Position numbers and translations under genes: made by a program. The notes under the pieces were generated by a model. It saw only the letters and a program-made list of their open reading frames with translations, made no database searches and had not been told where the DNA came from. From Viridothelium virens (Eukaryota > Ascomycota > Dothideomycetes > Trypetheliales > Trypetheliaceae): DNA of 64,000 nucleotides. Numbering within the stretch: the stretch's first letter is position 1; each line of letters starts with the position of its first letter. The stretch is from assembly GCA_010094025.1 (NCBI GenBank), contig ML991772.1, positions 930,001 to 994,000 on the forward strand. The letters are read 5' to 3'. Positions 59,796 through 63,969 of this stretch are shown piece after piece.

Positions 59796-60641
59796 ATGAA
59801 AAGTTCGTTCGAAGACGCCAAGGCTCGTGTTGACTGCGACATGGACGACGCAAAGCGCCATTCAACAGTGCCGTCGATGCTTGGCGATGATGAGAAAAAG
59901 AAGAAGGCCTGGTTCGACAGCAAGGAGCCAGATCCGGAGAAGTCGTTCAACGTTGAGATTCCTCAGAATGACCCTCCCCCGGCTGTTTTCACGAGCTATC
60001 CGCCCTCCCGCAGTCGTCGGTGGGGTCTATTTGTTCCGGCCTGGTTGATTGCACTCTTCGTATTGGTACTCATGTTTGAGTCAAGCATTCTCTTCATCTA
60101 CACTATTGTTGGCTTGTACAAGGAGACCGCACCTGTTATACTTTCCGCAGCTTCGGCAGCTGGCATGTCTGGTCGCTGCGACTGTGCGTCCTTTGGTACA
60201 CACGCCGGAGTGAGCCCCGCACCCAATGTGCAAGTAAGTCATGCGTCTAACTCTAGTAAAACCACTGCTAATTTTCTACAGGGGCCATCGATCTCCATTA
60301 TCACAGTAACCGATACGCCTGCTACCCAACCTGCAGAACCACCCATTCGTCCAACGTCAATAGAAACATCTGTTTCGACCGCGTCCTCAGTCTCGACCAC
60401 CACTGCCTCTGGTACCACCACCACTGCGTCAGCATCCACGAGTCTAGTGACGACAACTGCAACTCCACCCGCGAGCACGACGATCACCACCATCACGCCG
60501 ACTGAGCCGCCTGCTACGAGCACCACGTTCAGCACGAGCACGGTCCCCAACACTCCTGCTCCCGAACATACCATCTTCTCCACGCAAACGGTCCCACCTT
60601 CATCTTCCGGTAAGCACCATACTCCCAAGAGCGCCGGCTAA
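59796..60641 (+). CDS. Single-pass membrane protein with Ser/Thr/Pro-rich ectodomain
   Basis: Two exons (59796-60233 and 60282-60641); 265 residues. A charged cytosolic N-terminus (~70 residues, with DDEKKKKAWFDSKEPDPEKS) precedes one membrane helix at about 78-105 (FVPAWLIALFVLVLMFESS, ILFIYTIVGLY). A small cysteine pair (CDC) and a long Thr/Ser/Pro-rich tail, likely heavily O-mannosylated, follow. This resembles cell-wall stress sensors in composition, but the orientation (N-in, type II) and lack of a tail after the ectodomain argue against a classical sensor. The 48-nt intron (GTAAGT...CTACAG) is in frame and stop-free, so an unspliced form would add 16 residues. The frame above the ATG starts only with TTG. 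Confidence 0.62.
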   Translation: MKSSFEDAKARVDCDMDDAKRHSTVPSMLGDDEKKKKAWFDSKEPDPEKSFNVEIPQNDPPPAVFTSYPPSRSRRWGLFVPAWLIALFVLVLMFESSILFIYTIVGLYKETAPVILSAASAAGMSGRCDCASFGTHAGVSPAPNVQVSHASNSSKTTANFLQGPSISIITVTDTPATQPAEPPIRPTSIETSVSTASSVSTTTASGTTTTASASTSLVTTTATPPASTTITTITPTEPPATSTTFSTSTVPNTPAPEHTIFSTQTVPPSSSGKHHTPKSAG

Positions 60642-61434
60642 GCAGCGGTAACGGACGACAGGTACATTGTCGTCGGCATCGACGTCTGCATCGTTGCAAG
60701 CGCGGTGCGCCTGGCCGTTCTGCTGCGATAGCGGTGGTGCTAGCGCTGAGCTCCATCCTGGTGACCCTTGCTGACGTGGCTTTTGCAGCTTGAACATAAT
60801 TTTTCATCGTGCTTCTGCGATAATGAGACATGCTCGCTGTGGTGGGCACTGAGACCCGAGTCTTACAGTTTTGGAAAGACGGCTCACGAGTTGACGAATG
60901 GTTTTGCAAACTGCATCTTGGCGATTGCATTTGGGCATATTGATTTCAGGTACATATAGATTTTTGGCATACATGTCACTTACCTTGGCTGCGTAGCCTT
61001 CTCCTCCACATGATGGAGAATTATAGGTAAAATATCATCCAACCACATTATCTTCTATCTTCGCTCTTCAAAAATCGTATTTGCTACTACACTGCAGGCT
61101 GATTCTCCCTTCCTCGGAGCCAACCCTCACGCTTTCGCTTGCTTTCCTTACAAGAAATATACCCAATAATGTCAACTTACCAAACATGCAAGTCACGTGC
61201 AGCAGTAATGATTCTGAGTTCGCCACATTTGACCGTATTTACCCCCACCCCATCTAAGGCTACCAACACGTCAGGCGGCCAGTCATCCTCCAAGATCTCT
61301 CACCACTCATTTAGTCAGAATCGACACCGGATCATTGACCTGTCGGTATCTCCCTGGAAAACCGTGGCACTGTCTGTCCACCCACACCTCGCCGTCTCCC
61401 ACTAATTCTAGTCGTCCCCTATGAGAATGTAGCT
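60642..61434. other. Gene-free stretch before the PPxY array
   Basis: 793 bp between the 3' end of a plus-strand gene and the last frame of the minus-strand array. A short open frame at 61139-61405 (plus) has no supporting feature. Confidence 0.4.
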
Positions 61435-62004
61435 CTACCCACCCTTGATTCCATAATACGTAGGCACGGCGACGACGGCCAGTACGACGACGACAGCGAT
61501 GAAAGCCATCGTGCTGCGACGTGGCCCACGCCTCCTATACGGCGGCGGAGGGGTTTCAGAAGCGTCCTACCATCCTACAATCGTGACGCTGGCTCCCGGA
61601 GGAGCGGAAGCTCTGGGCTGCTGCTATTGCTGCTGTCCTATCGTGACGACTCCAGCGCCGGCAGGAGTGGGATCTGTGGGGCGGTGCGACTGATCCAGAG
61701 TAAGGACAATGCCGTGGCCACCAGGATCGAAGTAGTATTGGTGTACTGGAGAATGGGCGTGGCTGTCCCCTTGCTCGTCTGATGGATCGGAAGAGAAGGA
61801 GCGCTGAGGAGAGAGGGCCTGATCTGGGGATAAGCTGGTGGCGAGATCTTCGTCAATTGCACGATGGTCCTGCCCGTTTGATGTGTGGGAGAAAGAGGGC
61901 TGGTTGGATGCACCTCGGGATGAGGGTGGGTCATGGGAGAGAATGCGTAATGGCGCAGAGGAGGTTCGCACTACCTCTTCGTATGTTGGCAGATTATGAT
62001 CCAT
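61435..62004 (-). pseudogene. PPxY-family small gene, copy 4, with two in-frame TAG codons
   Basis: ATG at 62004. The first 126 codons begin MDHNLPTYEEVVRTSSAPL (LPxY motif) and end at TAG (61626-61624). The same frame then runs on for 18 codons to a second TAG (61569-61567). It continues through ETPPPPYRRRGPRRS and a strong membrane helix (MAFIAVVVVLAVVAVP) to a final TAG at 61435. The segments on either side of the first stop repeat each other (PAGAGVVTIG versus PPGASVTIVG). So the gene is either damaged by two nonsense changes, spliced in a way I cannot see (no GTA/GTG donor precedes the first stop), or read through. A short form ending at 61624 would be 126 residues and soluble. Confidence 0.5.
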
Positions 62005-62036
62005 GGCTGTCAATGCCCGCTTCCCTTGACTCCAGC

Positions 62037-62348
62037 TTATACGACTGGGCCAATGAGAAGGCCGGTGGCAGCACCTTTGCAACTGAAGATGGCAGTATGA
62101 CACGACGGAAGGGGGTGGTGACAACAGAGAGTTGAGTAATGGATAAAGTACTCAGTGGCGTGACGGTTAGTCGAAGTTGCAAGATGTTCGATGATTGCTG
62201 AGGGATGGCAATCGTTCTCGGCTGAAGAAGGGGAAAAGGGCTGACTGGTGCTCTGTTTGGCTCGCGGCGGTAGATCGTGAGCAGGGAGGCTTGACCGGGT
62301 AGGTGAACTTCGAAGTGACTTTTCGTTGGAGGGCGAACTGTAATCCAT
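62037..62348 (-). CDS. PPxY-family small gene, copy 3 (motif degenerate)
   Basis: 103 codons from an ATG, starting MDYSSPSNEKSLRSSPTRSS. It aligns by eye with copies 2 and 4 over about 60 residues (SSLPAHDLPP, STSQPFSPSS, EHLATST), but the PPxY tyrosine position is asparagine (SPSN). No membrane segment is visible. It starts only 16 bases after the stop of copy 2 and ends 32 bases before the ATG of copy 4. Probably a decaying duplicate, or an exon of a larger unrecognised gene. Confidence 0.4.
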   Translation of the reverse strand: MDYSSPSNEKSLRSSPTRSSLPAHDLPPRAKQSTSQPFSPSSAENDCHPSAIIEHLATSTNRHATEYFIHYSTLCCHHPLPSCHTAIFSCKGAATGLLIGPVV

Positions 62349-62364
62349 GAATGTTAGAGAACTC

Positions 62365-62673
62365 TCAATTCACCCTGAGAGACAGATAATCTCTGATGGC
62401 ACCGGCCAGGATATCGAAGCTCGTGTGGCTGATGTTGAAACTATGGCAAGGGTTAAGACGGATCTGAAGAAGGGGTATTTGGCGGGAGGCGGAAGATATC
62501 GGAATGATGCGCTGCTCGTTCGCTGAGCGTTCGCTACCGGTCTCCTTCGAAAGAGAAGAAGAGGGTTCCTCTAGAGTACCACACGCTAGAAGAGGTCGTC
62601 CGTCCGAGGGAAAGCTTGACTGGGCAGGCGATGTTCGGATCGCTTCTTCGTATGAGGGTGGGTGGCATTCCAT
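62365..62673 (-). CDS. PPxY-family small gene, copy 2
   Basis: 102 codons from an ATG, starting MECHPPSYEEAIRTSPAQSS, a perfect PPSY motif followed by EEAIRTS. Copy 4 has the same phrase as LPTYEEVVRTS, with matching bases TACGAAGA and CGAAC. The middle is Ser/Glu-rich; the end shows no membrane segment. It lies 26 bases after the stop of copy 1. It may be a soluble member, a truncated one, or the first exon of a spliced gene. Confidence 0.45.
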   Translation of the reverse strand: MECHPPSYEEAIRTSPAQSSFPSDGRPLLACGTLEEPSSSLSKETGSERSANEQRIIPISSASRQIPLLQIRLNPCHSFNISHTSFDILAGAIRDYLSLRVN

Positions 62674-62699
62674 GCGCTATTCTCGACTCCCATCGCTAT

Positions 62700-63157
62700 C
62701 TAAGTTGAGTCCTCGCCTTCGGCCTCCTGATTTTCGTGCTTGATCACGAGGAAGATGACCACGAATAAGATAATAGCCACGGCATGGAGGAGTAGCCACC
62801 ATGTGAGAGCGCACGAGTTACAAAAATTTTGAGAAGAGGAAGATGGTTGGAGGTTAGACGACTGGATGCCGATGGCGGTGGTGGCAGGCTCCAAGGTGAG
62901 TTGTTCACCAGGGGCTTCTCATTGAGCTGTGGGGGGGCTCAATTATGTTAGCAAGACTGGAAAACTGGCTAGACGGCACTTAGACTGGTGGATTAATGTA
63001 AAGAGGTCGTGCAAATTCGGATGGGTATTGTAAGGCGGCTTCGTATGAAGGAGGATTGCTTTCCTAAGCTTTTGGCGCGTAGAATCTGGGTACGAGAGGG
63101 AGAATAGCGAACTTGAATGGGTACTTACGTGAGCTCTTCGAATGCATCTTGGATCAT
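62700..63157 (-). CDS. PPxY-family small gene, copy 1, with one membrane helix (tentative spliced model)
   Basis: Tentative exons 63157-63129, 63058-62986, 62926-62909 and 62861-62700 give 93 residues. The product would begin MIQDAFEELTNPPSYEAAL (PPSY motif), pass through FARPLYINPP, then LNEKPLSSNLQ, and end with a helix TWWLLLHAVAIILFVVIFLV and an acidic tail. Donor 1 is GTAAGT; acceptors are AAAG, ACAG and CCAG; donor 2 is weak (GTCTAA) and exon 3 is only 18 nt. The last exon with the membrane helix and the PPSY exon are both clear as open sequence; how they join is inferred. Orientation would be PPxY side cytosolic. Confidence 0.4.
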
Positions 63158-63519
63158 GATCACTGATTACGGTTTTGTCAACGTCTATAGATCACAAACC
63201 CCAACGGCTTCTATCCAGGTAATATTGATCTCATTCCCGTTGAAGCTCATGTTCAGTTAGTCTCTCTGAGGTTTAAACCGTGCTCGCTCATAACGGTATG
63301 AGGAAATATTTAGCACGACTAACTCACAGTCGACTGACAGGACATATATTCAAAACATATCTAGCCCGTGTGCGGGATTTATCGGTATATGGTTATGAGC
63401 AAACTTCGCTAAAGTGTGTCCAGATCTTTGTGGAGCATCATCTGGTCACGACTCTTTCTCGATCGAAATTTTGTTCCTACCAAAAGCTTCTAATATCTTC
63501 CCCCAGCGCTGTAACCGGT

Positions 63520-63969
63520 TCAGATAAACTGGGGTAAAATAAGAGACATGATCACGATGCTCAACAAGCTTGCCACGTCAGGAAGCTGGGCTCCGTTCGA
63601 AGCACCGGACTTAGACTTAGGCCGACGGCCCTTAATCCCTCTATCGTCTGTCTCGTATCCATGTCCATGAGACATGAGATACTCATTTTCTGCTAAGCTT
63701 TCCCTAAGTGCTCTCACGGCGAAACGACTGACGCTTCCGGGTAGCTTAAACTCGTCGGAGTCATTGATGAAGGCGACAATGGTACCGATCACGACTAGAA
63801 GGATGATAAGAAACCCGACGGTCTGGGGCATACAAGAGTCGTGTTGTGGAGGTAGATTTGGCCGGAAGGCAGCCAATGTAGGTGAAGGGTCCTGTTGTGA
63901 CTCAAGATTGAGTCGCTGCAATTCGTGGACTGAGGAACACCTGTTATCTGAAGACTTGCGAGAAGACAT
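63520..63969 (-). CDS. Small membrane protein at the right edge, unknown function
   Basis: 149 residues from the ATG at 63969, but the frame stays open to the window edge, so the true start may lie outside. A polar Ser-rich head is followed by LPPQHDSC, a membrane helix at about 48-66 (VGFLIILLVVIGTIVAFI), a charged loop with RALRESLAENEYLMSHGHGY and a basic KGRRPKSKS stretch. A C-terminal hydrophobic tail (VASLLSIVIMSLILPQFI) follows. No PPxY motif. Size, strand and composition match the neighbouring PPxY genes, so it may belong to the same local group. Confidence 0.5.
   Translation of the reverse strand: MSSRKSSDNRCSSVHELQRLNLESQQDPSPTLAAFRPNLPPQHDSCMPQTVGFLIILLVVIGTIVAFINDSDEFKLPGSVSRFAVRALRESLAENEYLMSHGHGYETDDRGIKGRRPKSKSGASNGAQLPDVASLLSIVIMSLILPQFI

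Follow-up and report, generated by a model that had tools for sequence, protein, structure and literature searches.

A local and probably partly dead tandem array of small PY-motif reading frames in Viridothelium virens

Introduction

PY motifs recruit the WW domains of Rsp5/NEDD4 ligases. The membrane adaptors of Rsp5 in yeast (Bsd2, Ear1, Ssh4, Sna3 and Rcr1) carry PY-type docking sites beside a membrane segment, in several layouts: Bsd2 has three helices, Ear1 and Ssh4 have a SPRY domain, and in Rcr1 the helix precedes the PY motif. As described in the portions of the literature drawn on here, PY motifs direct the ubiquitination of the wtf antidote and its sorting to the endosome (PMC10721834). 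Dependence of toxicity or silence on Rsp5 docking has been shown for wtf and has been suggested for Spk-1 of Neurospora. In the parts of a second source used here, herpesvirus proteins with an N-terminal PY motif and a C-terminal helix are tail-anchored ligase adaptors (PMC5849660). Here we describe an array of small PY-motif reading frames on the minus strand, at positions 61435-63157 of a 64,000-nucleotide stretch of the Viridothelium virens genome (contig ML991772.1, positions 930,001 to 994,000; hereafter the window). An earlier note on this DNA had proposed a local, fast-changing tandem family of four PY genes. A diverged array of three copies stands; the idea of four working genes does not, as individual copies have defects of start, tyrosine, helix or stop. 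Rather than a new kind of system, the array probably represents a gene family that is confined to this locus and in part dead.

Results

Three members of the array are minus-strand open reading frames (ORFs) that begin with ATG: copy 2 (62365..62673; 102 amino acids, MECHPPSYEEAIRTSP...), copy 3 (62037..62348; 103 amino acids) and copy 4 (61624..62004; 126 amino acids, MDHNLPTYEEVVRTSS...), the last of which terminates at a TAG (61626-61624). Aligned, they have the common start M[ED]xxxP[ST][YN]E. PPSYEEA occupies residues 5-11 of copy 2, and the motif tyrosine is lost in copy 3 (SPSNEKS), as had been reported. Copies 2 and 4 carry the docking motif [LP]PxY, as does a fragment assigned to copy 1, and copy 3 lacks it. 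The segment with the motif would be cytosolic.

The homology of the PPxY starts, asserted earlier for all copies, is borne out by alignment for copies 2 to 4. Local protein alignments of the three pairs have z values of 5.8 to 7.7, and for each pair 0/1000 residue shuffles were as good. When the first 12 residues were cut, shuffles as good numbered 0/1000 for copies 2 and 3, 6/1000 for copies 3 and 4, and 296/1000 for copies 2 and 4, so that the protein likeness of this last pair resides in the start. Among non-overlapping DNA units, the score was reached by 0/500 dinucleotide shuffles for copies 2 and 3, 0/500 for copies 3 and 4, and 1/500 for copies 2 and 4; the first two matches start a few bases from the ATG and extend for ~154 and ~183 nucleotides, respectively. 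By these sequence comparisons, copies 2, 3 and 4 are true tandem relatives. That the family is fast-changing is suggested by divergence and decay among the local copies compared.

The motif is rare in the assembly (30.7 Mb in 175 contigs; the window is part of contig C2). The pattern [LP]PxYEE[AV] occurs six times, compared with once for a backward-pattern control, and two of the occurrences lie in the array, 669 nucleotides apart. Similarly, ATG followed by three residues and [LP]PxYE occurs seven times (control 0), twice in the array. The rough probability of finding two of six randomly placed sites no more than 700 bp apart is 7e-4, an estimate made after the cluster had been seen. These values bear on the idea that the array consists of serine/proline-rich open frames that happen to carry PY-like motifs, which would agree with the weak codon signal and with the serine/proline-rich composition of copies 2 to 4. 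Composition-preserving shuffles reject this idea for the three copies, and the clustering of the motif also argues against it, so we consider chance very improbable.

The ORFs of copies 2 to 4 look mostly disordered and are closely packed, with 16 nucleotides from the copy 2 stop to the copy 3 ATG and 32 nucleotides from the copy 3 stop to the copy 4 ATG, which leaves little space for separate promoters. These tiny gaps and the single orientation could indicate one multi-exon gene, whose single transcript would contain the copies as duplicated exons with introns between them and would have the copy 4 helix at its end. By eye, 36-nucleotide GT..AG stretches can be found between copies 2 and 3 (with CTAAC inside) and between copies 3 and 4, but both are very short and, again read by eye, do not join the homologous frames. 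A strict scan for introns of 40-160 nucleotides with a GTRNG/GTRNT donor, CTRAY and YAG found none on the minus strand at 61350-63300, and we regard a multi-exon gene as improbable. With GTRNG donors only, the single minus-strand candidate above 59 kb lies outside the array (61260-61303), and the whole window contained 90 candidates on one strand and 63 on the other, overlapping ones counted. Introns outside the scanned rules are possible. As a separate observation, the terminal TAA of copy 3 lies in the loop of a stable predicted hairpin at 62018-62058 on the minus strand (-15.3 kcal/mol, z -3.78, 0/200 shuffles), one of five stretches that were folded.

Copy 1 is a doubtful member of the family. 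It had been counted among four gene starts sharing a PPSYEEA-type beginning, but the frame from its ATG at 63157 reads MIQDAFEELT and then stops. PPSYEAA lies in another frame, straight after an in-frame TAG, with its first CCT at 63054, ~100 nucleotides beyond that ATG. The motif belongs to a stop-to-stop frame of 27 amino acids (62983..63063, minus strand) that lacks an ATG, and copy 1 has no ATG at the place matching the start of copies 2 to 4. Its likeness to copy 2 consists of the motif and 26 nucleotides (63039-63064) that are 81% identical. Against copies 2, 3 and 4, shuffles as good as the copy 1 DNA numbered 4/500, 334/500 and 379/500, and for a 25-residue protein stretch 1/1000, 128/1000 and 3/1000. 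For copy 1, which is set apart from shuffles in DNA against copy 2 only, the chance reading may hold. The ATG segment (63129..63157, minus strand) could be a first exon ending at GTAAGT (63128), as judged by eye; no CTRAY branch site follows this donor, and the TTAG acceptor at 63064 gives the wrong frame for PPSY, although an AG ending at 63059 would fit. Downstream on the same strand is a membrane-helix frame (62700..62918) of 72 amino acids, without an ATG, that has an acidic tail and ends at the stop 62702-62700; its open part (62918-62703) is in a frame different from that of PPSYEAA. For a hand-typed model of copy 1, all Pfam matches were below threshold (Orf78, E 0.094; DUF4381, E 0.14).

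Strong helices had been described after copies 1 and 4. Both stretches exceed chance expectation, but no intact ORF runs on into either of them. Two open stretches on the minus strand of 61435-63157 have a hydropathy score (KD19) of at least 2.3, whereas 200 base shuffles scanned in all three frames gave 0.015 such stretches on average and never more than 1. Judged by hydropathy, no copy has more than one strong helix; a membrane segment is absent from copy 2 (KD19 0.62), and the C-terminal end of copy 3 is weakly hydrophobic (KD19 1.41). The copy 4 helix ends a 189-codon run that is interrupted by TAG at codons 127 (61626-61624) and 146 (61569-61567). After the second TAG, the copy 4 tail (61435..61566, minus strand; 43 amino acids) continues in the frame of copy 4 with PPPPY and the basic stretch RRRGPRR, followed by a single hydrophobic helix and a few more residues before the stop; basic residues are on the N-terminal side of the helix. 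A Pfam search with 42 of these 43 residues found no families at E <= 0.01. Motif and helix share one frame in copy 4, with two TAGs between them, and occupy different frames in copy 1.

The preserved helices are consistent with genes that still work. Specifically, at least copies 1 and 4 could make PY-plus-helix proteins, either through non-canonical introns (copy 1 donors 63128, 62985 and 62908) or through recoding of TAG, as in the sexual-stage adenosine-to-inosine (A-to-I) editing of some Pezizomycotina. To the eye the copy 4 frame is protein-like across both TAGs, and copy 1 allows a frame-consistent model; however, that model depends on GTCTAA as a donor, and a CTRAY site is missing from two of its three introns. 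According to the parts of one source used here, fungal A-to-I editing prefers U at -1 and hairpin loops, often at UAG, and genome-wide editing is reported for Sordariomycetes and a single Pezizomycete; none was identified in Aspergillus nidulans or Botrytis cinerea (PMC11156358). The A of the first copy 4 TAG lies in a predicted 4-nucleotide loop, but this fold does not exceed shuffles in stability (z -0.07), and no hairpin loop contains the second TAG (z 1.00). Editing is possible but unsupported, since the first TAG is in a weak loop and the second in none. Overall, we consider working genes unlikely. Repeat-induced point mutation (RIP) was rejected as the cause of the stops: for 61435-63157, TpA/ApT is 0.65 and (CpA+TpG)/(ApC+GpT) is 1.26, compared with 0.67 and 1.26 for the window.

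A candidate partner for the motif was found in the same genome. Three of the 15 WW matches in the assembly fall in one frame on contig C59, whose best PDB match is RSP5 (E 9.8e-71), and HECT pieces occur next to or downstream of this frame. By homology, the genome encodes an Rsp5-type WW-HECT ligase. The Rsp5-adaptor-like function suggested in the earlier note is plausible because of this RSP5-like three-WW frame and its adjacent HECT pieces. Elsewhere, a frame at C32:274108 (L010) that looks like a WBP2-type protein carries LPRYEEA and PPGYEEV, both of the [LP]PxYEE[AV] type, and lies ~1.5 kb from a HECT-domain match (L034, C32:271489-272583).

Searches for relatives beyond the locus were negative. 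The remaining motif sites (four of the six and five of the seven, with one locus in both sets) were rejected, as by eye their continuation is unlike the copies. No convincing paralogue emerged when the genome was searched with copies 2 to 4, with the helix frame of copy 1 and with the tail of copy 4: the copy 4 query matched only itself (E <= 10), the queries from copy 3, the helix frame and the tail each did likewise (E <= 1), and copy 2 recovered copy 3 only at E 6 and did not recover copy 4 at E <= 10. Two weak matches of copy 2, C2:430102 (E 6e-4, with two TGA inside) and C44:82345 (E 0.003), were set aside as serine/proline-rich and, by eye, without a PY start. Copies 2 to 4 matched no Pfam families at E <= 1. 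In IMG/VR and prokaryote genomes, 34 and 3 pattern matches were obtained and none was confirmed, as expected for a fungal gene, and a search of open-licence literature on small PY membrane proteins and fungi returned known adaptors, herpesvirus proteins and studies of wtf and Spk-1, with no such array among the best matches listed.

The gene content of the window, with GH31, a sugar transporter and the lid domain of a fungal AAA protein, indicates a fungal source, as does the RSP5-like frame. Rfam and tRNA scans of the whole window gave no matches. The assembly yielded no match to 5.8S rRNA, and two enzymes of the window had no PDB match at E 1e-20 and 1e-50. Contig C2 ends 3.2 kb beyond the window, and paired TTAGGG repeats were not found near this end; a subtelomeric position of the array is possible. 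Directly upstream of the array is a minus-strand frame (63520-63969 in the window, open on to L012:1128) with one strong helix (KD19 2.94) and no PY motif, which in a genome search matched only itself (E <= 1). On the opposite strand, the array is flanked by a 281-amino-acid ORF (59796-60641) that has a single helix-like stretch, is rich in Ser/Thr towards its C-terminus and gave nothing above the Pfam cut-off. Outside the window, an ankyrin-repeat-rich frame lies near the contig end (L012:1914-3905, minus strand).

Discussion

The reading we favour, with about even confidence, is that a small fungal gene of no known family was duplicated in tandem, that its copies have largely decayed, and that the ancestor may have been a PY-motif, tail-anchored client or adaptor of Rsp5. 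The ancestral product was probably a short protein whose cytosolic N-terminus bore the [LP]PxYEE WW-binding motif, whose Ser/Pro-rich middle was probably disordered, and which had a single helix close to the C-terminus, giving a tail-anchored layout; as in copy 4, a second PY motif (PPPPY) could stand immediately before the helix. The PY motif would most likely dock the Rsp5/NEDD4 ligase of this genome at an endomembrane, and the protein itself, possibly together with neighbouring membrane cargo, would be ubiquitinated and sorted to the vacuole. We infer the union of helix and motif in one protein, its topology, its WW binding and function, and the decay of the copies. The client or adaptor role is proposed because PY motifs direct ubiquitination and sorting of the wtf antidote, because the combination of a PY motif with a helix has a precedent in herpesvirus proteins, and because the genome has an RSP5-like frame. 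Decay is suggested by the two in-frame TAGs of copy 4, the split frames of copy 1 and its lack of a matching ATG, the lost tyrosine of copy 3 and the missing helix of copy 2, and also by the small promoter room between frames together with the lack of a canonical intron at 61350-63300.

Several points weigh against this proposal. Three homologous ORFs of 102-126 codons are still open, which is more than wholly dead copies need, and intact products could arise through non-canonical introns or RNA editing. The own-genome searches gave no relative outside the locus that would support the ancestral layout; these searches are insensitive, and any paralogue that had diverged to the degree seen among the local copies would have escaped them, so that such paralogues could exist. 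Codon bias is weak in the window and uninformative: among 66 ORFs with 80-140 codons, copies 4, 2 and 3 rank 10th, 21st and 50th. In the codon-position identities, the third-position drop is no larger than in a codon-shuffle control, so purifying selection is not evident from them. Finally, there is no RIP signature that would explain the stops.

By analogy with wtf and Spk-1, one could picture the array as the remnant or the active core of a locus, close to the end of a chromosome, that is selfish or acts in allorecognition, where short PY membrane proteins have their toxicity or silence set by Rsp5 docking, where copies that differ in motif and helix are toxin-like and antidote-like variants, and where the copy 4 TAGs may be recoded at a specific stage. 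We consider this extremely improbable. If the copies that we read as a decayed duplicated gene were expressed and bound Rsp5, they would show that a docking motif and a helix were duplicated and then lost within one lineage, and would provide a natural test set for PY-dependent sorting, with the motif kept or lost and the helix kept or lost. If they are dead, this is an ordinary decayed tandem array by a contig end.

Compared with known systems, the array differs from the yeast Rsp5 membrane adaptors in its proposed layout, and from the Rsp5 adaptor families Bsd2/NDFIP and Rcr1 also in that copies 2 to 4 have no Pfam match. The fission-yeast wtf drivers are loosely similar as a large gene family, in the part of the source used here (PMC10721834), but they are multi-transmembrane proteins with an N-terminal PY motif, whereas the array has at most one strong helix per copy. 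Spk-1 of Neurospora is also loosely similar, being encoded by a small ORF (134 amino acids) with relatives in Neurospora only and predicted to span the membrane (PMC8092558), and it has a conserved PY motif (PMC10721834). On the published descriptions, as far as the excerpts used here extend, Spk-1 differs in having two predicted transmembrane segments with a central cytosolic region and in being a shown spore killer. The herpesvirus adaptors UL56, UL42 and U24 are viral, intact and shown to bind Itch, whereas in the array motif and helix are parted by stops. The likeness to them is one of layout, and in this respect, to judge from the part of the source used here, the array would resemble them in having one or more N-terminal cytosolic PY motifs, one C-terminal helix and low mutual similarity (PMC5849660).
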